Shown one piece after another: positions 33,535-47,210 of a stretch of 47,864 nucleotides of DNA. Each line of letters starts with the position of its first letter. Within the stretch, counting starts at the first letter, position 1. The notes beneath the pieces are model-generated. The model saw nothing but the letters and a program-made list of their open reading frames with translations. It was not told the DNA's origin and searched no databases. Both the position numbers and the translations under genes were made by a program. Source of the stretch: Methylomonas koyamae (GTDB lineage: Bacteria > Pseudomonadota > Gammaproteobacteria > Methylococcales > Methylomonadaceae); assembly GCA_945877625.1 (NCBI GenBank), contig CAMCSF010000003.1, positions 1 to 47,864 on the forward strand, given 5' to 3'.

Positions 33535-35700
33535 TTAGAATAATTCAAAGACAACACGATCAGCCTGGGTTTCTGAACCAGCCGCAGATTCCCCCGCGTG
33601 ACCGCCAGAATCAGCATCATTAGAAAAATTAGCAATCATTTCGCGCAAATAACGGGATTGTTTTTCCAAAATTGAGGCCGCTTCAATCGACTCACCCGCC
33701 AAAACATTGTTCATTTGGGTAATCGAATCGATTTGAGTGATCACATCTTTAACTTGATCAATACCAATGCTTTGCTCAGAAGAAGCCAAGGAAATATCGG
33801 CCATTAGATCGGTAACACGATTAACCGAACTAACCACTTCGTTAATGGTTTTACCGGCGTATTCAACTCGGGTATTACCGGTTTGAACATTGGCCACCGA
33901 AACTTGAATCAAGGCTTTAATTTCTTTTGCCGCAGCGGCAGAACGTTGTGCTAACGAGCGCACTTCACTAGCTACCACCGCAAAACCACGACCTTGCTCC
34001 CCTGCTCTGGCGGCTTCCACAGCAGCATTCAGCGCTAAGATATTGGTTTGGAAAGCAATTTCATCAATCACCCCAATAATATTGGCCACTTTATGCGAAC
34101 TTTGGTTAATCGAGGCCATCGTGCTAATCACTTCGCCAACTGCCTCACCACCTTGTTCAGCGATGCTAGAGGTATCCAATACTAATTGATTAGCCAAACG
34201 GGCGTTATCAGCGGTTTGCTTAACCCTTACCAACAGATTTTCCATACTGATGGCGTTTTTCTTCAAACTCACCGATTGCACTTCGGTACGCTGAGCAAAA
34301 TCCATATTGCCATTACTAATCTGTAACGAAGCGGCGTGAATCACTTCAATCGAACTGGCCATTGCCTTAACCATATCGATTAAGGATTGACGCATTTGAT
34401 TAACCCCGCTCGCGGTTTCACCAAACAAGCCCGGATAATCGGCATCAATTTGCTGGGTTAAATCGCCTTGGGCTAAGTGATTAGTAATTCGAGAAATATC
34501 ACTCAAATTCTCTTCAACAATTTCAAATAAACGATTCACTTGCTCGACCAAGGTTTTATTCGAGCCTTTCAAGTTAAGTTCAGATAATCGACCGCTAAAA
34601 TCACCATGACTAGCGGCATCAACATGATCAATCATTTCATTCAAACGATGTCGACGCTCTTCTAAAGCCTCCATGATGTAATCAAACACCGCTTTGTATT
34701 CACCGACTGCTTGTACTTGCACTTGACTAGAAAAATCACCTTCAGCCAAGGCGGCAATTTGCTGTTTAAACACAGTAAATATCGAATCTAAGGTTGAAAT
34801 AGTGGCGTTGACACTTTGTTTCACCGCCTCAAAATCACCTTCCATCGTCAATTCAACCCGATGCTTAAAATCGCCTTCACTCAGTGCTCTAGTCGATTGG
34901 CTAATATCGGCTAGTGAGGTTTCCACCATGTCAGCACTGCGATTAAATAATCGCGCAATCATGCCCAATTCATCATCGCCGTAGTAATCGATTCTGGCTG
35001 AAATATCACCACGATCAAAATCCCTAACCCCGCGCCAGACTTGCTGTACTGTTGATTTAGTCTGCTCAGCAATCCAGACAGTTAAAGCCAAACTCAGTAA
35101 GGAACTAAACCCCGCTGTCGCAATCACCCATCGTGAATCAAACTGATAGACCGACAATATGCCAGTCCCTAAACTGCCGACAATCGCCACTGTCACTGGT
35201 AAAACACTGCGCGCTTTTAACGATAAACCGCCCAAAATACCCGCCGATTTGCGACGCGTGGCAATGGTATCTAGGACAATTTTCTCGCCGCGATTAATTC
35301 GGCTATACAGTGTTTCCGCTTTAACGATGGCTTCAGGACTAGGCTTTTTGCGAATTGAGCGGTAACCAAAAATTTGGTTAGAGCCTTTGTAAATCGGTGT
35401 CACCGAGGCATGAACCCAATAAAAATCACCATTAGCACAACGATTTTTAATCACCCCAGTCCATTGAGCGCCTGACCTTACCGTACGCCATAAATCCGCA
35501 TAGGCTTCAGCCGGCATATCAGGATGACGAACGATATTGTGACTTTTGCCAATTAACTCGGCTTCACTATAACCAGAAACCCGACAAAAAGCCGGATTCG
35601 CGGCTCGGATAATGCCTTCTGCGTCGGTTTCAGAAATTAAAACCTCACTGGCAAGAAAATCACGCTCTATATCGGTAACAGGCAGATTTGATGTCTTCAT
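33535..35700 (-). CDS. Aer-like PAS-containing chemoreceptor
   Basis: The 721 residues are arranged PAS (about 15-120: SETDAEGIIRAANPAFCRVSGYSEAELIGKSHNIVRHPDMP...FYWVHASVTPIY), two closely spaced membrane helices (about 167-187 and 190-211), about five HAMP-like units marked by GDISARID, GDFKHRVE, GDFSSQVQ, GDFSGRLS and GDLTQQID, and a signalling domain with a canonical tip. The PAS is of the kind that binds FAD in Aer and senses redox or oxygen; flavin binding is inferred. Compared with the neighbouring receptor the methylation segment has EE replaced by KK (SLKKNAISMENL). The chain ends, after a Gly/Ser/Ala linker, in VFELF. Confidence 0.93.
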   Translation of the reverse strand: MKTSNLPVTDIERDFLASEVLISETDAEGIIRAANPAFCRVSGYSEAELIGKSHNIVRHPDMPAEAYADLWRTVRSGAQWTGVIKNRCANGDFYWVHASVTPIYKGSNQIFGYRSIRKKPSPEAIVKAETLYSRINRGEKIVLDTIATRRKSAGILGGLSLKARSVLPVTVAIVGSLGTGILSVYQFDSRWVIATAGFSSLLSLALTVWIAEQTKSTVQQVWRGVRDFDRGDISARIDYYGDDELGMIARLFNRSADMVETSLADISQSTRALSEGDFKHRVELTMEGDFEAVKQSVNATISTLDSIFTVFKQQIAALAEGDFSSQVQVQAVGEYKAVFDYIMEALEERRHRLNEMIDHVDAASHGDFSGRLSELNLKGSNKTLVEQVNRLFEIVEENLSDISRITNHLAQGDLTQQIDADYPGLFGETASGVNQMRQSLIDMVKAMASSIEVIHAASLQISNGNMDFAQRTEVQSVSLKKNAISMENLLVRVKQTADNARLANQLVLDTSSIAEQGGEAVGEVISTMASINQSSHKVANIIGVIDEIAFQTNILALNAAVEAARAGEQGRGFAVVASEVRSLAQRSAAAAKEIKALIQVSVANVQTGNTRVEYAGKTINEVVSSVNRVTDLMADISLASSEQSIGIDQVKDVITQIDSITQMNNVLAGESIEAASILEKQSRYLREMIANFSNDADSGGHAGESAAGSETQADRVVFELF

Positions 35701-35728: not shown

Positions 35729-36514
35729 TTAAGGACATAGCTGCAATAGAAATTCACGTAATTGGGCAAAGTCTTCAGCAGCACGGCTTTTAGGTGCGTA
35801 ATAACGAATCGGTTTACCGTGAGCAAACGATTCAGCCAAACTAATATCGTTGCGAATACCGGGTAACACTTTAGAACTACCAAATTGCTGGGAAACCCCT
35901 TCTTTGACGGTGCGATGCACACGAATATGATCCGACGACATCATCGGTAAAAATCCAGCCACTTTCAGCTTTTTATTCGGCCCTGAAATAATCTTAAACA
36001 AGACGCGGGTTAACTGACGCACCCCTTCAAATGACAAGGGATGCGGCACATAAGGCACTAATAACCAATTAGCGGCGATCAAAGCGTTTAACAACAAAAT
36101 GTCATGGGATGGCGGCGTGTCTAAAATCACCACATCAAATTGATCGACAATCGCAGCCTCGGCCAAAGCGGTTTTTAACACCGTTTCATCACGCAAACCT
36201 TCGCCATGTTCAAACAAAGCATCGGCTGGCACTAAGCTCAAACCTTCAAACGCAGTGGACTGAATCGCCGCCGTTAAGCTGGCTTCACGATGACGAAACA
36301 AACTGTGAATCGTCGCATCATCTTTACCGACTTTAACCCCCAAACCTACCGCACAATGGCCTTGGGTATCCATATCGATTAACAATACTCGGCGACCCAT
36401 GGCCGCTAATTCGGCGGCGATATTGACCGAAACGGTGGTTTTACCGGTGCCGCCCTTACGATTAGACACGGCAATCACTTGTAATTGATGTGGCGTAGTT
36501 TGCGGTTTATCCAT
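35729..36514 (-). CDS. ParA/MinD-family ATPase, possibly array-positioning
   Basis: The 261 residues carry a perfect deviant Walker A (RKGGTGKTT, residues 19-27), LLIDMDTQGHCAVGLG and the switch segment VVILDTPPSHDILLLNALIAAN. No ParB or parS partner is nearby. In several gammaproteobacteria a ParA homologue (ParC, PpfA) coded in a chemotaxis cluster places receptor arrays at the pole or midcell; the location here between a CheZ-like gene and a receptor gene suggests that role. I use the ATG at 36514; the track start is an upstream TTG. Confidence 0.9.
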   Translation of the reverse strand: MDKPQTTPHQLQVIAVSNRKGGTGKTTVSVNIAAELAAMGRRVLLIDMDTQGHCAVGLGVKVGKDDATIHSLFRHREASLTAAIQSTAFEGLSLVPADALFEHGEGLRDETVLKTALAEAAIVDQFDVVILDTPPSHDILLLNALIAANWLLVPYVPHPLSFEGVRQLTRVLFKIISGPNKKLKVAGFLPMMSSDHIRVHRTVKEGVSQQFGSSKVLPGIRNDISLAESFAHGKPIRYYAPKSRAAEDFAQLREFLLQLCP

Positions 36515-36533
36515 AGTGATTTGGCTCAATTTC

Positions 36534-37115
36534 TCAGAAAAGTTCTATCTTGGCGCCTGCATCATCATCGCTACTATTGGCATGACGACCTTCTAAAGCC
36601 AGATATTCATCTAATACTTGCTGCATTTGCAATGGCAAGGTTTGCAACTCTTCATCCGAAGAATCGACTTTTTCGACAAACTCTTGGAACAAGGCATTCC
36701 GTTTATTAACCGCATACTCAATGCGCTCAATCCGCTGTCTAACCACATCTTGAAATTGAATTTGCCCCAACATTTCAGCAATTTCTGCCGCTAATTTAGC
36801 GTTATGCTCGGCAACCATTGTGAACAAGGCTTTGTAATGTTGGCGAAGTTGATCGGCACCGTGTTCAATTTCACTGGCTTTCAAGGTCGGACTATCCAAA
36901 TGCTGCAATAAAGCATTGGTTTCGTCGCTGAGCTTGCGCCCCCGCATAATCAAACTCATGGCCGCATCTTCGGTATCAACCACCACACCATTCAATTGAT
37001 CGGCCAATACTTCATCCAGACGCATGTGGTTAACCATCATTAACGCCGCCTGTTGATTAGCGATATGAGATTCCTCGGTTTGTTCGGTGATAGCGTTTTC
37101 AACTGACATAAGCAT
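36534..37115 (-). CDS. CheZ-like protein (putative CheY-P phosphatase)
   Basis: The 193-residue, mostly helical acidic protein has the segment EIAEMLGQIQFQDVVRQRIERIEYAV. The D-x3-Q spacing (Asp123, Gln127 in QDVVRQ) is that of the catalytic pair of CheZ (QDLTGQ), embedded in a similar long helix. The tail is a Ser/Asp-rich linker plus a hydrophobic terminal peptide (AKIELF), which recalls the CheY-binding C-terminal peptide of CheZ. Overall similarity to classical CheZ is low, so this is a likely but unproven phosphatase. Its start (37115, or the second ATG at 37109) overlaps the stop of the upstream cheY, fitting a CheY/CheZ pair. Confidence 0.7.
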   Translation of the reverse strand: MLMSVENAITEQTEESHIANQQAALMMVNHMRLDEVLADQLNGVVVDTEDAAMSLIMRGRKLSDETNALLQHLDSPTLKASEIEHGADQLRQHYKALFTMVAEHNAKLAAEIAEMLGQIQFQDVVRQRIERIEYAVNKRNALFQEFVEKVDSSDEELQTLPLQMQQVLDEYLALEGRHANSSDDDAGAKIELF

Positions 37116-37489
37116 TAAGCTCCGGGTAAAACCTGTTTAATAATCTTGAGTAAATCAGCACCGCCCATAGGCTTAACCAACCAACCAGTAGCGCCGAGTT
37201 TTTTCGCTTCATCACGACGAGTTTGCTGATTTTCGGTGGTTAACACCAAAATCGGCGTGAAGCGTAAATTTGCCAAAGCCCGCGCGTGTTGAATCAATTC
37301 CAAACCGTTCATATTCGGCATATTGATGTCGGTGATAATTAAGTCGGGTTTTAAACCGCCTTTCAACTTATCTAAAGCCTGTACACCATCCGGTGCGGTT
37401 TCTACGATAAACCCGGCGATTTCTAAATTGTTTCTGACACTCATCAAAATAGTTGCTGAGTCATCAATCACGAAAATGGTCTTTGCCAT
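37115..37489 (-). CDS. CheY-like single-domain response regulator (second CheY)
   Basis: The 124 residues form one receiver domain with Asp9, Asp10, phospho-acceptor Asp54 (IITDINMPNMNG), Thr84/85 and Lys106 (LVKPM). There is no output domain. It overlaps the CheZ-like gene at TAATG, so the two are probably made together. It could be either the motor-binding CheY or a phosphate sink; the other receiver (40699-41067) stands next to cheA. Confidence 0.95.
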   Translation of the reverse strand: MAKTIFVIDDSATILMSVRNNLEIAGFIVETAPDGVQALDKLKGGLKPDLIITDINMPNMNGLELIQHARALANLRFTPILVLTTENQQTRRDEAKKLGATGWLVKPMGGADLLKIIKQVLPGA

Positions 37490-37688: not shown

Positions 37689-37919
37689 TCACAAAACGGT
37701 TTTTAGCCAAGCGCGTAAATTTTCATCTTTCGGCCAAACCGCAATCTGGATTTTTGCGGCAATCAAAACTTGCAAATTCGCTGGGTGCAAATGGCTGCAA
37801 CGGCTTAAATCGAGCTTGGGATTGCTACGGTTTTGTAGCCAATCCAATAACGATTCGGCTTCATCAACACTAACCACGTCACTAAACACCGCTTGATTTT
37901 TTTTATATTCAATCGCCAT
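37689..37919 (-). CDS. Small STAS-like domain protein lacking the phospho-serine
   Basis: The 76 residues fit a single STAS (anti-sigma-antagonist) fold: LDLSRCSHLHPANLQVLIAAKIQI corresponds to the usual D-L-S-x-V-x-x-I-D-S-A-G-L-x-x-L-x-A block. In this protein the D-S-A-G motif is H-P-A-N, so the phosphorylatable Ser is absent. Its ATG overlaps the cheA stop (TAATG), with GGGAG before it, so it is coupled to cheA. Function is unknown; an adaptor in the chemotaxis complex is a guess. Confidence 0.65.
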   Translation of the reverse strand: MAIEYKKNQAVFSDVVSVDEAESLLDWLQNRSNPKLDLSRCSHLHPANLQVLIAAKIQIAVWPKDENLRAWLKTVL

Positions 37920-40699
37920 TACACCAACTCCCTGACATTAAGCACCATTAACACCGAGCCATCGCCCATCAAAGCCGAGCCAGAATAAGCGCCCAAACCA
38001 GCCAAAACACCGGTTAATGGTTTCTGAATCACATCAATGGTTTCGTGGAAGTCGTCAACAATCATGCCCATTTGCTCATTGCCGATTCTGACTACCAACA
38101 CGGCAATTTCATCATCGTCATTCACAATCGGTTCAGCCGTCAAATTCAACAGATTATTTAAAGCTTTCAAAGCGACAATATTGCCGCGTAACACGGTGGT
38201 TTTGCTTTGTTTAATGCTGACAATGTCTTTACGAGCAATTCGCACCGTTTCGACCACATTATCCATCGGCACACCAAAAATCTGATTATCCGATTCAATA
38301 ATCATCACTTTAGTCACCGCCATCGACAATGGCAAGGAGATACGAATTTTAGTGCCTTTACCGACTTGGCTTTCTAGCTGGATATTGCCGTTGACCTTTT
38401 CAACCGCAGTACGCACCACATCCATACCAACGCCACGACCGGACAAATCGGACACCACATCAGCGGTCGAAAAACCCGCCGCAAATACCAAATTCACCGC
38501 ATCACGATCAGTCAATCGCTCCAGTGCCGCCTCATCAATAATGCCTTTTTCATAGGCTTTACGTTTCACGATCACCGGATCAATGCCTTTACCGTCATCG
38601 CTAATTTCGATGATGACCTGATCGCCTTCCTGATTAGCGCGAATCGTTAAAGTACCCGTCGCCGATTTACCAGCGGCACGACGTACATCAGGGGTTTCCA
38701 GACCATGATCCAAACTGTTACGAACAATGTGAATCAAAGGATCGGCTAAGGCTTCGATAATATTTTTATCGGCTTCGGTATCTTCACCTTCCAAGACCAA
38801 ATGCACTTCTTTGTCTAATTTGCGCGAAATATCCCGCACCAAGCGTGGGAAACGCTGAAACACAAACGACACCGGCATCATCCGCACTTGCATAATCGCG
38901 TCTTGCATTTCTTCGGCGATCCGATTGATCACCGCATACTGGGCTTTAATTTCCCGCGCTAACTCTCGCACCGCATAATGTTCTTCTGCGCGTTGCGCCA
39001 AATAAGGCAGCGCATTTTTCGACACCACCATTTCGCCGATTAAATTCATCAAGCGATCAATTTTGGTTTGATCCACTTTTAAACTTTTGGCACTGGCAAT
39101 TTCTTCAGGACGGCGGCCAAATTTAGGACCTTCCTCAACTGTGCTAGTTTCTGGCGCAGCAAACGGCTGTTCAATAACAGGCTCAGGCGCTACTTCAATT
39201 AAGGTTGTTAAGCCTAAAGGTGGAACAGGTTTGACCACTTCTGGCTCGATGACCGCTTCAACAACCTCAACCTCAATGGCTTGCCGCGAAGCCAGCCAAT
39301 CTAATAGCGGCTGACTGCTTTCTGTACTCAATGACTGCTCAACCGCAATCTCAATCGCCGCCAGCGCTTGCGTGTCGCCCATCGCTTTACAGCAATTTTG
39401 TAACACACCTGCAACCGCTTTAACCCGACCAAACTGCCAAGAAGCGCCATCATCCAACATCAAAATCTGCTGTTGAGCGGCAAAAATAGCTTCTAAGGCC
39501 GCAGCGTCGTCTTCAGAAATACTCGGCGTTTTTACTGGCTCAGGTTCGACCATCGGCTGTTCAACAATCGCAACAGGTTCAAGCACTGGCGCAGGTTGTT
39601 GCGGTTCTGATTTAAGTACTGGTTTGCTTTCAAGCTTGGCTTGCGGATTTAAAACAGACCAATCAGGCGCGGTCAAACTACGCAGTGATTCGATTAAAAT
39701 CGAAATCGCTTGGTGATTCGGTGGCACCGTATCCAGCAATATAATCAACCAACGCAAGGCTGAAGACAGCCATAAATCGGGATTGCTGAGTTGCAACATG
39801 GTTTCGGCAACTTGGCGTAAGCTTGCCAAATCACCGGCTTCTAATTGCTGTAAAGCCTCGGTAACAAAATCTTCATAGACAGGGCCACCATTGGGATTAC
39901 CTTGCGGAATCACCAAGCCCCAAGGCTGAATTTCAATCAGCTGAATTTGATCGGGGACATAACGAAAATGTTCGATTAACTCTTCGCGTGGCGCGGTGCT
40001 AAGGACATGAAAATCCAACACACAGCGATAAGCATCCAAATCCGCCAACAACGGCAATGCTTCACGAACAACAATTTGCCCCCACAAAGTTTCTGGAGTT
40101 TGTCGGGCGGTAAAAAACGGATCATCACCTTGAAAAAAACAACCTTCAATCGGCGTATAAACCAGCCAATACAAACTATCGCCCGCCACCGCGCGTTGAT
40201 AAGCATCGACCCGCACTGATTCGGCTAAATCAGCCAACGGCAAACTCGCCGCATCCAGTGTCGCTACTGGTGTAATAGCAACTGGTTCGGCACTGGCATC
40301 GGTCAGTATGGCTTGCTTAGCCATTAACACCCGCAACGCTTCGGCTAAGCGATAAGAATCCACCGCACGCTCAGCGGCAATTTTGCCGTCTTGCTCGATT
40401 TCGTCACACAACATCGACACGAAATCCATCGCATCTAGCAATTGATCGGCTAAATGCTGCGAATAAGCCACACGGCCATCGCGTACCGCATCCATCAAAT
40501 CTTCGCCAGCATGCAAGACGCGAGTCATTTCAGGAAAATCAAACAGGCCACTATTACCTTTTAAGGTATGAACCAGCCGGAACAACTCCACCATCAAATG
40601 AGCATCATTAGGGGCTTGCTCCAACTGCATCAGCTTTTCGGCAATACCCTGCAAAAACTCACGCGCTTCCGATAAAAATTGCTCTAACAAGGGATTCAC
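37919..40699 (-). CDS. cheA: CheA-type chemotaxis histidine kinase, extra-long
   Basis: CheA phosphorylates CheY and CheB under receptor control. The 926 residues begin with an HPt domain (LVHTLKGNSGLF, His44), followed by an unusually long region (about 110-530) with no clear classical P2 domain and a Pro/Glu/Val-rich linker, then the dimerisation helices (VDQTKIDRLMNLIGEMVVSKNAL, near 540), the HATPase (IHIVRNSLDHGLE near 660, ISDDGKGID, GRGVGMDVV) and a CheW-like regulatory domain (about 790-926). The start is a GTG that shares bases with the stop of the upstream cheY (TAGTG), with GGAGG at good distance. The classical length is about 650-750 residues. Confidence 0.95.
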   Translation of the reverse strand: MNPLLEQFLSEAREFLQGIAEKLMQLEQAPNDAHLMVELFRLVHTLKGNSGLFDFPEMTRVLHAGEDLMDAVRDGRVAYSQHLADQLLDAMDFVSMLCDEIEQDGKIAAERAVDSYRLAEALRVLMAKQAILTDASAEPVAITPVATLDAASLPLADLAESVRVDAYQRAVAGDSLYWLVYTPIEGCFFQGDDPFFTARQTPETLWGQIVVREALPLLADLDAYRCVLDFHVLSTAPREELIEHFRYVPDQIQLIEIQPWGLVIPQGNPNGGPVYEDFVTEALQQLEAGDLASLRQVAETMLQLSNPDLWLSSALRWLIILLDTVPPNHQAISILIESLRSLTAPDWSVLNPQAKLESKPVLKSEPQQPAPVLEPVAIVEQPMVEPEPVKTPSISEDDAAALEAIFAAQQQILMLDDGASWQFGRVKAVAGVLQNCCKAMGDTQALAAIEIAVEQSLSTESSQPLLDWLASRQAIEVEVVEAVIEPEVVKPVPPLGLTTLIEVAPEPVIEQPFAAPETSTVEEGPKFGRRPEEIASAKSLKVDQTKIDRLMNLIGEMVVSKNALPYLAQRAEEHYAVRELAREIKAQYAVINRIAEEMQDAIMQVRMMPVSFVFQRFPRLVRDISRKLDKEVHLVLEGEDTEADKNIIEALADPLIHIVRNSLDHGLETPDVRRAAGKSATGTLTIRANQEGDQVIIEISDDGKGIDPVIVKRKAYEKGIIDEAALERLTDRDAVNLVFAAGFSTADVVSDLSGRGVGMDVVRTAVEKVNGNIQLESQVGKGTKIRISLPLSMAVTKVMIIESDNQIFGVPMDNVVETVRIARKDIVSIKQSKTTVLRGNIVALKALNNLLNLTAEPIVNDDDEIAVLVVRIGNEQMGMIVDDFHETIDVIQKPLTGVLAGLGAYSGSALMGDGSVLMVLNVRELV

Positions 40700-41067
40700 T
40701 AGCCAGCCTCCCCAAGTAATAAACGAACATGGGTTAATAACTGCAACGGCTTAACTGGCTTCACCAAATAGCCATTCGCGCCAGCTTTGTAAGCGGCAAC
40801 TTGGTCGTTAGCAGCGGCTTCGGTAGACACCATAATCGCCGGCACTTGCGAAATATCTTCGCCGCGTAATTCGCGTAAAAAGCCATAACCATCTAGCTTA
40901 GGCATGTTGACATCGACGATGTATAAATCAAACGATTCAAGCAGGGCTTTTTCCAGCGCTTCAATGCCATTTAAAGCTTCATCAACACTATAACCTGCGG
41001 TTTCGAGGATGTTGCGATGGTACATACGTACAGTGGCAGCATCATCAACTATCAAGATGCGTTTCAT
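40699..41067 (-). CDS. cheY: CheY-like response regulator next to cheA
   Basis: The 122 residues form one receiver domain with Asp8, Asp9, phospho-acceptor Asp52 (YIVDVNMPKLDG), Ser/Thr81-82 and Lys103 (LVKPV). Its ATG overlaps the cheR stop (ATGA) behind GGAGG. The direct coupling to cheA makes it the most likely motor-binding CheY, but the second copy at 37115 is equally possible. Confidence 0.95.
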   Translation of the reverse strand: MKRILIVDDAATVRMYHRNILETAGYSVDEALNGIEALEKALLESFDLYIVDVNMPKLDGYGFLRELRGEDISQVPAIMVSTEAAANDQVAAYKAGANGYLVKPVKPLQLLTHVRLLLGEAG

Positions 41068-41918
41068 CGCGCCTCCAGAGATTTTTGGTAAACAATTGCT
41101 TGAGGAAATTTGCGTATTTTGTAGATAGACGAAATCCGGCTCATTGATTCAGCATGACCTAAGCAAAGAAAACCGCCAGGACGCAGAGCATCAAAGAAAG
41201 TTTCTGCCGCCGCTTTACGCGACAAATCATCAAAATAAATCAACAAATTACGACAAAAGATTAGGTCGAAATTCCGATAATTACGGGTATCAGCGGGTTC
41301 TGCTAAATTAACGCGGGTAAATTCCACCGCTTCGCGCAAGTCTTGGCAGATTTGATAATCATCACCGACCCGCGAGAAATACTTGATTAACCAAGGCGCT
41401 GGCACATGCATCACCGAACGGGCTGAATAACGACCGACACGGGCTTTATGCAAAATCCCCGTATCAATGTCGGATGAGATAATCTCAACATCCCAATGAT
41501 GAATCCCCGCCCAGCGTTCAAGCAAATACATCGCTACCGTGTAAGGCTCTTCGCCGGATGATGACGGAATACACCAAACCCGAATCGGGCTGTTATCCGC
41601 TTTACGCTTAACAATTTCCGGCAAAATCGATTCGACCATGCACTCAAATTGATATTCCTCGCGCAAGAAATAGGTTTCGTTAACCGTCATTAAATTGGTC
41701 AACAATTGCAATTCTTCGCCCGACACCTGAAAACGCATCATGGTGAAGTAATTACGAAATGTATCGCTGTCAGTCGCTTCAATGCGTTCAATCAAACGTT
41801 TATCAACAAAATAACGCTTGGTTGGCTCAAAACTAATGCCAGTTTTGCGATAAAAATATTCTCTAAACTTCTGAAAATCATCATCACTAATGGTGAGTTT
41901 GGTTTTCTCAGTTTTCAT
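41064..41918 (-). CDS. cheR: CheR, chemoreceptor glutamate methyltransferase
   Basis: CheR methylates receptor glutamates with S-adenosylmethionine. The 284 residues show the helical N-terminal domain and the Rossmann domain with SSGEEPYTVAMYL (SAM site; the usual CSTGEEPY is PSSSGEEPY here), VEIISSDIDTGILHKARVGRYSARSV, and FDLIFCRNLLIYFDD (NxxIYF-type motif) and GGFLCLGHAES. The ATG lies 11 bp inside the HEAT gene. Confidence 0.97.
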   Translation of the reverse strand: MKTEKTKLTISDDDFQKFREYFYRKTGISFEPTKRYFVDKRLIERIEATDSDTFRNYFTMMRFQVSGEELQLLTNLMTVNETYFLREEYQFECMVESILPEIVKRKADNSPIRVWCIPSSSGEEPYTVAMYLLERWAGIHHWDVEIISSDIDTGILHKARVGRYSARSVMHVPAPWLIKYFSRVGDDYQICQDLREAVEFTRVNLAEPADTRNYRNFDLIFCRNLLIYFDDLSRKAAAETFFDALRPGGFLCLGHAESMSRISSIYKIRKFPQAIVYQKSLEAR

Positions 41919-42531
41919 TAATTCGTCTCAATGCCAAATCAGCGGCGAACTGAATATAAGGCTCATCGCTAAACCGCGCTTTGAGTTGAGCTAAGGGTTC
42001 GAGCGCCGCTTGGCTACCGACTTCGCCTAATAAATCGACTGCTGTAGCACAGACATTGACATGAGCATCGTTGCTAATCACATCAATTAACCAACCTTCC
42101 ACTTCGGGATGGCATAAAGATTCCAAGACATTGACAGTGAAAATCCGCACATCAGGATCAGCATCGGCCAATAAACCCAGCATAATCGGCGCAACTTCAT
42201 CGGGCATTTGCTTCATCGCTTCCACCACTTCATTACGCAAAGCCGCATCTTCACTGCGCAAGCACTCGACCATACCAGCCACCGCGTCAGGATCACCTAA
42301 GCGGGTTAAGCTGGTTAATATCACTTCGCGTACTGATTGTGATTGCTCGACCTTTAATCGCTCCATCAAATCAACCGCATAGCCTGGCAAATCTGCCAAA
42401 TCACGAGCCGCCCAACGGCGAACGCTGGCATCATCCGACTCAAGCTCCGCTAATAAAGTACGGCTATCGCGCACCGGCTCAGCTTGATTTTCAGCAATCG
42501 CTTCACTGCTATTCTTTTTGACAAATGCCAT
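41908..42531 (-). CDS. HEAT-repeat protein embedded in the chemotaxis operon
   Basis: The 207 residues contain about four to five HEAT-type helical pairs: DDASVRRWAARDLADL, QSVREVILTSLTRLGDPDAV, EDAALRNEVVEAMKQM, DADPDVRIFTVNVLESLCHPE and NDAHVNVCATAVDLLGEVGSQ. Such repeats act as protein-binding scaffolds. It has a good GGGAG site and overlaps cheR by 11 bp, so it is made with CheB and CheR and may tether or tune them. No enzyme motif is seen; precise role unknown. Confidence 0.88.
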   Translation of the reverse strand: MAFVKKNSSEAIAENQAEPVRDSRTLLAELESDDASVRRWAARDLADLPGYAVDLMERLKVEQSQSVREVILTSLTRLGDPDAVAGMVECLRSEDAALRNEVVEAMKQMPDEVAPIMLGLLADADPDVRIFTVNVLESLCHPEVEGWLIDVISNDAHVNVCATAVDLLGEVGSQAALEPLAQLKARFSDEPYIQFAADLALRRINEN

Positions 42532-42544
42532 TGATAAACTCCCG

Positions 42545-43621
42545 TTATCGCCCAGCCCAAACCGTCAGCTGTTTAGCGACTTTCGCCGCATCCAACACCA
42601 AATTTGCGCCACCTTTTTTAATTAATTCAGCCGGCATCCCAAACACCACGCAGGATTCTTGGGATTCAGCAATCGTGCGTCCGCCGCGTTTTTTAATTTC
42701 GGTAAAGGCATCAGAACCATCATTGCCCATGCCGGTTAACATCACAGCAATTACATTGGCGGGATCGAAATGTTCCAATACCGAACGTCCCAATAATTCC
42801 ACCGAAGGATGCCAGAGAAATTCGGCTGATTCGGGTTTTGGTAATACCGTTAATTTACCCGCCCGATTGACTAACACCATATCGGCGCCGCCTTTGGCGA
42901 TATAAATCATCCCCGGTTGCAACACCATCGGCGATGCTGCCTCAACCACGTCCAAAGCACAGACCTGATTTAAACGGTCGGCGAACGAGCGAGTAAATGC
43001 CGCCGGCATGTGTTGCGCTACTAACACGGGAAAAGGAAAATCAGCCGGCAATTGCGGCAAAATATCTTCCAAGGTTCTAGGACCACCAGTTGAAACGCCG
43101 ATAATCACCAAGCCATCAGTGTTAGTGAAACCGCTGCGAGAACTAATCGAACCACGCGCCGCGACCTTTTCTCGGTCATCACGCATTTGTTTGACTAAGC
43201 CGGTAATCGCAGGCGACTTGGCCTTAATCTTAGCTCTGGCTGCCGAACGGACTTTGCTGATTAATTCAGCTTTTACCTCTTCCATCGACAAGGAAATGGT
43301 ACCGCCGGGTTTAGCAACATAATCAACCGCGCCTAAATTCAAGGCTTCAAAAGTTGCTAAAGCGCCCTGCTCGGTCAGTGATGACACCATCACCACCGGC
43401 ACTGGCCGCTCTGCCATGATTAATGACAAAGCGGTCAGACCGTCCATTTCTGGCATGTTGATGTCTAAGGTCACAACATCCGGTTGGAAGTCGCGGTTTT
43501 CCGCGACTGCCTCTTGGCCATTTCTCGCTTGGCGTATTTGAAACCCGCCAACAGACTCAAATACTTGTGTTAACTGGCGGCGCATTAACGCCGAGTCATC
43601 AACAATCAGTAACTTGGTCAC
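42545..43621 (-). CDS. cheB: CheB, receptor methylesterase/deamidase response regulator
   Basis: CheB removes receptor methyl groups when phosphorylated by CheA. From the GTG at 43621 it has 358 residues: a receiver domain (Asp53 in TLDINMPEMDG, LVIP-type end at VAKPGG) and a C-terminal esterase with catalytic Ser177 (IGVSTGG), His204 (VAQHMPAAFT) and Asp301 (MLTGMGNDG). I prefer the GTG because GGGAG stands 5 bp before it and it overlaps the CheW stop by 4 bp (GTGA); the track start is an ATG at 43633 with a poorer site. Confidence 0.96.
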   Translation of the reverse strand: MTKLLIVDDSALMRRQLTQVFESVGGFQIRQARNGQEAVAENRDFQPDVVTLDINMPEMDGLTALSLIMAERPVPVVMVSSLTEQGALATFEALNLGAVDYVAKPGGTISLSMEEVKAELISKVRSAARAKIKAKSPAITGLVKQMRDDREKVAARGSISSRSGFTNTDGLVIIGVSTGGPRTLEDILPQLPADFPFPVLVAQHMPAAFTRSFADRLNQVCALDVVEAASPMVLQPGMIYIAKGGADMVLVNRAGKLTVLPKPESAEFLWHPSVELLGRSVLEHFDPANVIAVMLTGMGNDGSDAFTEIKKRGGRTIAESQESCVVFGMPAELIKKGGANLVLDAAKVAKQLTVWAGR

Positions 43622-45189
43622 ACCGTCTCCCATTCGCCACTGCTAATTTTGCTCAACTCATCGCTGTCAATCAGATAAGCGGTTTCAATTAACTGCACCA
43701 TACGTTTTTGTTTTTCCATATTCGCCATCCGCGCCAACAAGCGACCTTGTTCGCTGGATAATTGTGGCGATGGTTCAATCAAGGATTTCGGAATTTTCAA
43801 CACTTCAGCAACATGGTCAACAATAAAACCGGTGCGAACATCGGCAATCATAAACACCATAATCCGCTGTCTATCGGTGCGTGCCAATTTCTCCAAGCCT
43901 AAGCGAGCGCGTAAATCAATCACCGGTAACACAGTCCCGCGCAGATTAATTACCCCTTCGACAGAACCCGGTGCTTTCGGCACATGAATCAACTCATCAG
44001 GCACGCGGACAATTTCTTGTACGTTATTAATCTCGACGCCAAATTCTTCTTTACCGAGATGGAAAACCACCACCTGCTCTTCGTCATCAACGCTGTCATC
44101 GAGCTCGGCGTTATTGTCGATGTCTTGATAGCTATCACTCACAGTATTCAAAGCCTCTTTAATCGCAGAATGATCAAACAAGTTACGCGCCGTAACAATA
44201 GACACCAAACGCTTGCCATCGTCTAAGCGACAAATCTCAGCAATGTCAGCCAGATTGCCTTCGCTGGCTAATAACACCGGCATCGGATCAACCAAATTTT
44301 TCGGCACACGCAACACTTCGCTAACCGCATCGACCGCCAAACCGACTTCTGCACCGCCCAAACTTAACACCACAATTCGGCTTTTTTCATCCAAATCACG
44401 ATCCGATAAGTCAAACAAACGCCGTAAATCGACTAATGGCAACAAACGGCTACGCAAGGTAATCAAACCCAAAACGTGCGGGGCTGAATGCGGGACATGA
44501 ACCACGGTATCAGGTACTTGAATGATTTCTTGCACATCATCAATCGAAATCGCGTATTCCTGACCAGCCACATCAAAGCTAACTAATTGCAATTCATCAC
44601 TGTCTTGCTCGTCGCTGTCAGCGCTATTGGTATCGATGGCCATATTAGCCGCTAAATTGCTGGTTTTCGCTAAAGCAGCAATTTGGGCAAATTCACGGTG
44701 AATCAGCTTTTCAAAATCCAGCACCATAATCATGCTGTGACCACCGACATTGTTAATAATGCCGGTCAACAAATCGCTATCAACGGTGCTGCGAATCGCA
44801 TCAACGTCTTCGATTTGGTTGATATTAACTTCCACCACGCTGGAGACTTGATCAACCACAAAGCCTAAAGGCTGGCCGACATCAATTACCACTGCACGGG
44901 TCGAATCATCATGTACCCGCTCAGCAAAGCCAAACAAGCGACGCAATGACACAATCGGCAATACCTTGCCGCGCAAATTAGCCAAACCATCTAAAGTAGG
45001 CGGCGCTAAAGGTACGCGCACCACCTCGGGTAAACGGATAATTTCCTGAACCGGCGCCATATCCACAGCAAACACTTCGTTATCGGCAATAAAAGTCACA
45101 AATTGCCGAGTGTCAGAGGCCAATTCTTCAAAACCATCCTCACTCAAGCTGGCCTGATCGGCCTGCTGTTCTAGTGTATCGGTAGTCAT
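43618..45189 (-). CDS. CheW-type coupling protein with three tandem CheW domains
   Basis: CheW couples receptors to CheA. The 523 residues hold three full CheW domains in a row: about 28-165 (FVTFIADNEVFAVDMAPVQEIIRLPEVVRVP), about 205-345 (LVSFDVAGQEYAISIDDVQEIIQVPDTVVHVP) and about 372-505 (VVVFHLGKEEFGVEINNVQEIVRVPDELIHVP), each with the NLRGxVLPIVxLRxxxG-type strand. The domains are joined by acidic linkers. A normal CheW has one domain (about 160 residues). GGAG lies 6 bp before the ATG. No single-domain CheW is in the window. Confidence 0.95.
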   Translation of the reverse strand: MTTDTLEQQADQASLSEDGFEELASDTRQFVTFIADNEVFAVDMAPVQEIIRLPEVVRVPLAPPTLDGLANLRGKVLPIVSLRRLFGFAERVHDDSTRAVVIDVGQPLGFVVDQVSSVVEVNINQIEDVDAIRSTVDSDLLTGIINNVGGHSMIMVLDFEKLIHREFAQIAALAKTSNLAANMAIDTNSADSDEQDSDELQLVSFDVAGQEYAISIDDVQEIIQVPDTVVHVPHSAPHVLGLITLRSRLLPLVDLRRLFDLSDRDLDEKSRIVVLSLGGAEVGLAVDAVSEVLRVPKNLVDPMPVLLASEGNLADIAEICRLDDGKRLVSIVTARNLFDHSAIKEALNTVSDSYQDIDNNAELDDSVDDEEQVVVFHLGKEEFGVEINNVQEIVRVPDELIHVPKAPGSVEGVINLRGTVLPVIDLRARLGLEKLARTDRQRIMVFMIADVRTGFIVDHVAEVLKIPKSLIEPSPQLSSEQGRLLARMANMEKQKRMVQLIETAYLIDSDELSKISSGEWETV

Positions 45190-45200
45190 AATCGCTCCCC

Positions 45201-47123
45201 TTAGGCTGCGCTTTGCAATTCGTCAGCAAGTGATGAAATCTCTTCAATCGCAGAAGCCAATTCTTCAGCACCTTTGGATTGTTGTACCGCAGCCGCAGCC
45301 GCTTCGTTAACCGCTTTTTCAGCTTCTTGTGCAGCAGTAGAAATTTGCTCGACACCTTTTTTGGCTTGACCAATCGCAGCGGCAATTTCGACAGAGGCAT
45401 TCAAAATCGCTTGGGTGCCGTTATCCACTTCAACCACGTTAGCTTCGATTTCGTTCAGATTAGCGGTTGAAACTTTTGCTTGTTCAACTTCGGTAACTGC
45501 CGCTTCGACAATTTGTGCCAAGTCAGTGCTCACCGCAAAAATTTGATCTTGTACCGCTTTGACCATGTCTTTAATGCGATCAGCATTTTCAGCTGAATCA
45601 CGGGCCAAATTACGAATGTCGTTAGATACCACCACAAAGCCTTTACCAAACTCACCGGCACGCGCAGCCTCGATGGCGCCGTTAACCGCTAATAAGTTGG
45701 TTTGAATTGAAACTGTCGCAATCGCTTCAACGATTTTGTCGATGCGGCGAGCAACCAACTCAAGGTCTTTGACTTGTTTAATGCTTTGCTGAGTGCCTAG
45801 AACTGAGGAAGAAATACCATCAATCAATTCATCAACCGAAGTTTTGTTAGTCGCTAACAAACCTTGCACACCACGCAGTTTTTCAGCACTGATAGTCGCT
45901 CTGTCTTGAGCCACTTCAATACCTTTCTCGATTTGGTTAACCGCTGCCGCTGATTCTTCACTGGCTGCTGCTGCAGTTTGTGCGCCTTTACGGATTTGTT
46001 CCAACGCCGCCATGATTTGCGCGCTGGCACGGTTAATTTCTTGCACCGCTGACGACAATTCTTCAGCAGATGACGCCACTTCTTCGGCGCTTTTCGCTAC
46101 GTCAGTGGAGTTTTTCAAATCTTCGGCTAATTCAGATAAAGCTTGTGCCGCTTGCTCTGATTCAGCCAAGGCTTGCGCTTGTTCTTCAACAGTTTTGGTT
46201 GATTCTTCCGCCGCCGCTGATTGTTCAACTGAAGCTGAAGCAATGTCTTCAGAACCTTTCAAAGCTTGTTGTGCAGCCGCTTCTGATTGTTTAGCGCCAG
46301 CAGCAATTTCAACAATACCTTTTACAACATCAACTACGTCGATGCGGATTTGTTCCAACTGTTGAGTAATGATTTTGCCTTTCGCTACCTCACCTTCAAC
46401 GGTTTGTGCTGATTCGTTAATACCGTCAGAAATGACTTTAACGTCTTGTTGGATTTGCCCCACCAAGTCTTGAATTTGTTTGGCGCTTTTTTCAGAAGTT
46501 TCCGCCAAAGTCCGCACTTCGTCAGCAACCACCGCAAAACCACGACCATGACGGCCAGCGCGCGCTGCTTCAATCGCCGCGTTCAAAGCCAATAAGTTAG
46601 TTTGGTCAGCAATACGCGCCACGGCTTTAACGATGTCGCCGATATTGGCCGCTTGTTGCTCCAATTCTTCAACCATTTTGACTGAAGCGACTTGGCGTTG
46701 CGCTGCAACACCGACATTGGTAATCAAACCCGCGACATCAGCTGAGGTTTTGACAATTAAAGCTTGAGAAGCTTCGCCTTTAGTTTGGCTAATATCTGCA
46801 TTTTGTAACTGTAAAGCGATGGCGCCTGTGACTTGATTAAAGGCCGCTAATGATTCTTGCGCCGCGCCTGATGCTTCTTCAGCACCGGTGGCGATTTGAT
46901 CAGAGGCGCGTTTTAATTCTTCTGCAGCTGAGGCCGCTTCGTTAATACCCGATGACAACTGCGCAGTGGCGGCAGCAATTCGCTCAGCAGCTTGCTGTTG
47001 TTTGGCTAAAGTTCTAGCACGTTTGCGCTGAGCATCCGCTTCGCGAGAGGTTGCGGCGTTGGTTTTACCGGTATCGACTGCTTGATAGCTAGTAGTAGCA
47101 GTTGGTTTTTTAACGATGGCCAT
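45201..47123 (-). CDS. Soluble chemoreceptor with two tandem signalling domains
   Basis: The 640 residues (ATG at 47123, GGAG 8 bp before it; the track start is upstream of the leader hairpin) have no membrane helix, no PAS and no other sensor, only long Ala/Glu/Gln-rich coiled coil. Two receptor signalling tips are present about 300 residues apart: [34 protein letters not shown] (near 171-204) and [34 protein letters not shown] (near 471-504). Repeated EEL/EEI segments such as [13 protein letters not shown] and [14 protein letters not shown] look like methylation helices. It heads the chemotaxis cluster and lies 11 bp before the triple-CheW gene. Its input is unknown. Confidence 0.92.
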
Positions 47124-47159
47124 GAAACAGCTCCTTTTTTTAATAATTAATGAACACAA

Positions 47160-47180
47160 TAAAAAACCCGAGTCAACGGG
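47160..47180 (-). terminator. Terminator-like (attenuator-like) hairpin in the receptor leader
   Basis: On the minus strand CCCG-TTGACT-CGGG is followed directly by TTTTTTATT, about 40 bp before the receptor ATG. The 4-bp GC stem with a U-tract in a 5' leader would suit attenuation, but the stem is short. Confidence 0.35.
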
Positions 47181-47210
47181 AGGCCACCGAACCAAATAAA
47201 AAGTCAGTTA

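Follow-up and report, generated by a model that had tools for sequence, protein, structure and literature searches.

A putative CheZ-type phosphatase descended from a membrane MCP-CheZ-like hybrid carries a C-terminal tail shared with CheD and a PAS receptor

Canonical CheZ uses a C-terminal peptide to bind CheY, and Lys26 of E. coli CheY pairs with Asp143 of CheZ. The D-x3-Q pair is a known phosphatase motif both of CheZ (PMC7750401) and of the HisKA_3 kinases (PMC3510030). The C-terminal pentapeptide of chemoreceptors is defined by the criterion xZxxZ, where Z is F, W or Y (PMC7390727); the dependence of CheR on this pentapeptide follows a rule of beta-loop length, with Pseudomonas aeruginosa CheR1 being pentapeptide-independent and short-looped (PMC3062574), and activated CheB binds the pentapeptide at the receiver-linker junction (PMC8609364). 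Searches of the open literature for CheZ-like MCPs, for a CheZ domain in receptors and for a CheD C-terminal motif returned nothing relevant (subscription papers were outside their scope), and no earlier mention of a C-terminal tail on CheD was found in the open papers searched. As far as that literature goes, the CheZ-like family and the tail described here are previously undescribed.

The window, which is the whole stretch of 47,864 nucleotides that was analyzed, comes from a Methylococcales assembly and contains the second chemotaxis cluster of this methane oxidizer, in which the ATG of the gene for a CheZ-like protein shares one base with the stop codon of the single-domain cheY upstream of it (TAATG). 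The features on which the analysis rests are the following.

36534..37115, minus strand: CheZ-like protein, 193 aa, all-helical, without a transmembrane segment or MCP hairpin; the tree places it among MCP-containing relatives
36735..36758, minus strand: QFQDVVRQ motif, with D123 at 36747-36749 and Q127 at 36735-36737; aligned on CheZ FQDLTGQ by hhalign
36537..36551, minus strand: KIELF tail of the CheZ-like protein, terminating a disordered linker (residues 178-193, pLDDT < 50)
37115..37489, minus strand: CheY2, a single-domain CheY and the presumed substrate; its gene overlaps the start of the CheZ-like gene by one base
35729..36529, minus strand: ParA-like ATPase, between the CheZ-like gene and the PAS receptor gene
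33535..35700, minus strand: PAS-HAMP-MCP receptor, 721 aa
33538..33552, minus strand: VFELF tail of the PAS receptor, kept as FELF in three orthologs
37919..40699, minus strand: CheA of the same cluster
40699..41067, minus strand: CheY1, a second single-domain CheY, between cheA and cheR
41064..41918, minus strand: CheR, with a short beta-loop of 18 residues from YF to VEF, versus 22 in Salmonella CheR

Upstream of the CheZ-like gene and cheY2, the cluster continues with cheA, the second cheY, cheR, a HEAT-repeat protein, cheB, a triple-CheW protein and a 664-residue MCP-domain protein. The HEAT-repeat protein between cheB and cheR and the three-CheW protein (41908-45189) are both kept in the window-type clusters of other genomes, and in the 664-residue chemoreceptor-like protein (45201-47195) a single chain matches the MCP signalling domain twice. 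The ParA-like ATPase probably serves array positioning. CheY2 retains the DD/D/T/K site and has Asn at D+2 and Glu at T+2, like E. coli CheY; at the position equivalent to Lys26 of E. coli CheY it has Glu. The host genome also encodes a canonical CheZ, which scores 187 bits against PF04344 and belongs to the main chemotaxis cluster. In another of the Methylococcales (L045, 9521-14814), a stressosome-like module (RsbRD_N-STAS, STAS, HATPase_c_2 kinases and a SpoIIE-type phosphatase) and a GGDEF-EAL protein lie directly downstream of a CheZ-like hybrid; the gene orders of L046 and L047 are similar, and the same place in the window holds the ParA and PAS receptor genes.

The first-pass annotation had drawn attention to the D-x3-Q spacing of CheZ in QDVVRQ (Asp123/Gln127), in a long helix and next to a coupled cheY, and this observation proved correct. 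D123 and Q127 sit within IQFQDVVRQR and are the equivalents of the CheZ pair. Single-sequence searches with the window protein against Pfam, NCBIfam and the PDB gave no match, nor did it hit PF04344 or NF041271; a protein search of plasmids gave no match. A PDB profile search with its C-terminal segment returned only chance coiled coils, and only MCPs once the hybrids were added. The AF2 model of the monomer is all-helical and weak (pLDDT 67), and Foldseek with this model returned no CheZ match and nothing informative.

A likeness to CheZ emerges at the level of the family. Across 23 diverged sequences in the tail-less alignment, Q120, D123 and Q127 are the sole invariant positions. When a family profile built from 53-98 sequences was compared with 22 CheZ sequences using hhalign, the two aligned with a probability of 91.8-92.4% over 68-69 gapless columns, with FQDxxxQ falling on FQDLTGQ. 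The controls gave 1.1% for reversed CheZ, at most 0.95% for twenty column shuffles, and, for ordinary MCP C-termini, 0.7% against the family and 8.8% against CheZ. Masking the seven motif residues drops the probability against the CheZ profile to 3%, and the short forms taken by themselves give no more than 40%. Family models give sub-threshold scores on the relatives (PF04344 at 3.4e-6, 6.7e-5 and 4.3e-4; NF041271 CheZ at 0.0067 on L006; all below cut-off), and the tail-less model of the relatives scores weakly on canonical CheZ (9.8e-4 and 3.4e-3). The masking result means that the evidence covers the shared catalytic motif and not the common descent of the whole hairpin, and the motif could have arisen convergently, as in the HisKA_3 kinases (PMC3510030). 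Because D-x3-Q is known from both CheZ and HisKA_3 proteins, the motif and the CheY neighbor make a phosphatase function likely without implying membership of the CheZ family. The earlier description of the protein as CheZ-like therefore stands for the family, at about 92% versus about 1-9% for the controls, and not for the window protein alone, which matches no model; the profile-profile comparison that had been proposed as a check is positive for the family, with nearly all of its signal coming from FQDxxxQ.

Close orthologs of the window protein (L002, L003 and L005) are 72-74% identical. More distant relatives are 408-450 residues long; they begin with a hydrophobic segment, and an MCP signalling hairpin separates the regions that correspond to the two halves of the window protein. 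Most relatives across the Proteobacteria are of this kind, about 400 residues with the MCP hairpin and the same D-x3-Q helix; a window-like model finds relatives in 44 of 369 Gammaproteobacteria genomes, and a broader tail-less model in 122 of 399 Proteobacteria genomes. The hairpin (PF00015) is present in most relatives and absent from the window protein and its clade, which is one of three separate hairpin-less groups, the others being proteins of 159-162 residues with FHD-x3-Q and proteins of 137-204 residues. The tree supports the window clade at 100/100 and joins it to its MCP-containing sisters L006 and L007 (100/96), within the hybrid clade (100/99), and the receptor tip, which is deleted in the window clade, is already degenerate in L006. 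As the window clade is nested among hybrids, its lineage lost both the hairpin and the membrane anchor; the window protein descends from a membrane MCP-CheZ-like hybrid and has secondarily lost the membrane and MCP parts.

The relatives occur in three operon settings: the window type; the order hybrid-cheY-cheA-mcp-cheW-cheR-cheD-cheB; and a hybrid placed after cheR-cheD-cheB. In the first two, cheY adjoins the hybrid gene in about 19 of 20 loci, and in another lineage the gene of a 162-residue relative stands directly before cheY. The window's own genome encodes a second short CheZ-like protein (L141, 14714-15193; contig C4:19713-20192) of 159 residues, with the motif LQFHDLTTQ and the end MESGDVELF, whose gene is flanked on both sides by a cheY and neighbors the canonical CheZ cluster. 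Proteins of about 570-606 residues from other proteobacterial families (L195, L196, L197 and L205) match the tail-less model without D-x3-Q and end in DALF or FEMF; they are possibly a degenerate branch.

The resemblance between the KIELF end of the window protein and the VFELF end of the PAS receptor coded two genes downstream, both after linkers, was also confirmed. The CheZ-like protein ends SSDDDAGAKIELF, and the receptor ends ...ADRVVFELF, preceded by a Ser/Gly/Asp-rich linker. The shared element is [IVLF]-x-[LF]-F-COOH, for which "ELF" alone is too narrow a description: orthologs L002, L003 and L005 of the CheZ-like protein keep KIELF, its distant relatives end in QFELF, RLELF, RIELF, QIELF or IVLF, and receptor orthologs L002, L003 and L051 keep FELF although their linkers are unalignable. 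Counted over 41 annotated loci, the ending [ILVF]x[LF]F occurs on all 35 of the CheZ-like and hybrid proteins, on 11 of 20 CheD proteins, on 4 of 43 MCP-labelled proteins (two of them long hybrids, which leaves 2 of 41 true receptors) and on 3 of 200 "other" proteins (two short FHD-x3-Q proteins and one GGDEF protein); it is found on none of 260 CheA, CheB, CheR, CheW, CheY, ParA, HEAT, STAS, CheZ, sigma and Mot proteins. Since the first search model had included the tail, a tail-less model was used for a second round; among the motif-bearing ORFs read, 26/26 and 24/25 carried the tail.

Gammaproteobacterial CheD commonly ends in PVEGDIELF or a similar peptide. One set shows it in about 26 of 29 proteins, in some of them extended by one to three residues or with Trp in place of Phe; a second set shows it in 17 of 17 read, once with five residues added. 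Tails encoded in the same operon match: CheD DITFF goes with hybrid EITFF in L063, NIELF ends both CheD and hybrid in L055, and L134 has hybrid DLTFF, CheD DVEFW and GGDEF DVEFF. In operons with two or three tailed proteins, residue -2 always agrees by a count made by hand, as L/L in 13 and as F/F in two (L063 and L134). The GGDEF protein of L134 (13221-14273, genome G008), whose gene comes right after cheB, terminates in SGDVEFF, a tail like those of the hybrid and CheD from its operon, and forms a possible link between chemotaxis and cyclic-di-GMP.

It is very improbable that the two window proteins share their ending by coincidence. Such a reading can point to the DNA pattern [IVLMF]-E-[LF]-F-stop, which is not enriched across the own genome (18 matches versus 24 for the reversed pattern); however, among ten of these matches examined, real ORF ends occur only in three che genes, and the tail persists in orthologs of each protein and in 35/35 relatives, as opposed to 0/260 other Che, motor and associated proteins. 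On the tally over protein classes, a chance origin was rejected. Rather unlikely, in our judgment, is that the tail is a variant of the chemoreceptor pentapeptide (NWETF/WEEF type), inherited from the receptor ancestor to tether CheR and/or CheB and serving adaptation rather than dephosphorylation. VFELF does have the xZxxZ form (PMC7390727), as does QFELF in L006 and L007, an acidic third residue and terminal Phe are common to DIELF and NWETF, and the own genome has another CheR with a long loop (L142); yet KIELF has Ile at position 2, where an aromatic residue is required. All nine CheRs measured in window-type clusters have a short beta-loop (18-19 residues), the window CheR showing a four-residue gap relative to Salmonella CheR; they resemble P. 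aeruginosa CheR1, which is pentapeptide-independent. Where the MCPs of a cluster end in WEEF or FxRF, by contrast, its CheR has the long loop of 22 residues, as in Salmonella (loop rule in PMC3062574). In addition, there are operons whose MCP ends in WEEF while their CheD and hybrid end in IELF, without mixing of the two. CheR had been the first candidate for the tail partner, given the likeness of NWETF to DIELF and the fit of VFELF; it was marked down on the short loops and this coexistence, and the sequence comparisons make it an unlikely partner. A receiver domain is the better guess, since the CheZ peptide binds CheY and activated CheB binds the pentapeptide, and by this analogy the predicted partner is probably CheY, or CheB when phosphorylated. 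A CheY-binding tail has no obvious fit to a receptor, which counts against docking to a receiver. The proposal that a common end implies a common partner "such as a CheY or CheR" has thus gained a real, conserved tail that is restricted to few protein classes and extends to CheD; of the two proposed partners, CheY (or another receiver domain) is the better candidate and CheR is disfavored.

Taken together, we narrowly favor the reading of the window protein as a CheZ-type phosphatase for the adjacent CheY, with a tail that would dock on a shared partner, probably a receiver domain. The catalysis, substrate and partner that we infer would work as follows. A soluble auxiliary phosphatase would act on the CheY encoded just upstream, its long helix placing Asp123 and Gln127 at the phosphorylated Asp of CheY, where they would position the attacking water in the manner of Asp143 and Gln147 of E. 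coli CheZ. Its ancestor was a membrane-bound MCP-like hybrid with the same D-x3-Q helix below the receptor hairpin, from which the anchor and hairpin were then lost. The disordered linker and [IVLF]-x-[LF]-F tail would form a docking tether for a component also bound by CheD and the PAS receptor, and may raise the local substrate concentration as the C-terminal peptide of CheZ does. Arguing against a CheZ-type phosphatase are the canonical CheZ in the same genome, the Glu of CheY2 at the Lys26 position, the absence of a DDLLSSLGF tail, the failure of any family model to match the window protein, and the weak AF2 model with no CheZ among its Foldseek results. The protein could instead be a non-catalytic remnant of a chemoreceptor that serves as an array scaffold or adaptor, with Q-x2-D-x3-Q as a packing or dimerization motif: the relatives are mostly MCP-hairpin proteins, the CheZ profile signal is limited to the motif, and Foldseek does not group the protein with CheZ. 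We consider such a scaffold improbable, though not remotely so, given that D, Q and the tail stay invariant while the receptor tip degenerates (L006) or is deleted (window clade), that ordinary MCP C-terminal coiled coils do not match, and that CheY genes adjoin.

More tentatively, and with somewhat less confidence than in the phosphatase itself, we suggest that [IVLF]-x-[LF]-F may be a common proteobacterial docking tag, distinct from the CheR pentapeptide. Through it CheD, a large and so far unrecognized family of CheZ-like phosphatases derived from receptors, and now and then a receptor or a diguanylate cyclase would meet at a single partner, which is probably an activated receiver domain. 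In bacteria without CheC, both adaptation and dephosphorylation would thereby be coupled to CheY-P or CheB-P. If these proposals are true, many short proteobacterial "MCPs" would be CheY phosphatases rather than receptors, second chemosensory systems without an obvious signal-termination enzyme would be provided with one, and the CheD tail would be the first lead to the control of CheD in Gammaproteobacteria that lack CheC.

Compared with described systems, the window protein has in common with CheZ (PF04344, NF041271), the CheY-P phosphatase, an FQD-x3-Q in a long helix, a cheY neighbor, and a disordered linker leading to a hydrophobic C-terminal peptide whose last residue is Phe. It differs in that the similarity is confined to the motif, with no significant family-model match, in that its closest relatives have an MCP hairpin and transmembrane helices, and in its end, which is KIELF and not DDLLSSLGF; canonical CheZ proteins mostly end in LLSSLGF, MLADLGF or LLSQLGF (a few divergent CheZ differ), and a CheY-binding peptide of the DDLLxxLGF type is absent from the C-terminus of the window protein. 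With the HisKA_3 kinases such as NarX it shares a helical D-x3-Q pair that in those kinases serves response-regulator dephosphorylation (PMC3510030), but it has neither their phospho-accepting His nor an ATPase domain. The tail resembles the chemoreceptor pentapeptide (NWETF, GWEEF; the CheR/CheB tether) in being a short acidic-aromatic peptide that closes the chain behind a flexible linker, whereas KIELF/DIELF-type tails have Ile or Val at position 2 and are carried by CheD and phosphatase-like proteins and not mainly by MCPs, and the CheR of the window cluster is short-looped. The receptor deamidase CheD (PF03975) has a fold unrelated to that of the CheZ-like protein but in Gammaproteobacteria ends in nearly the same peptide.
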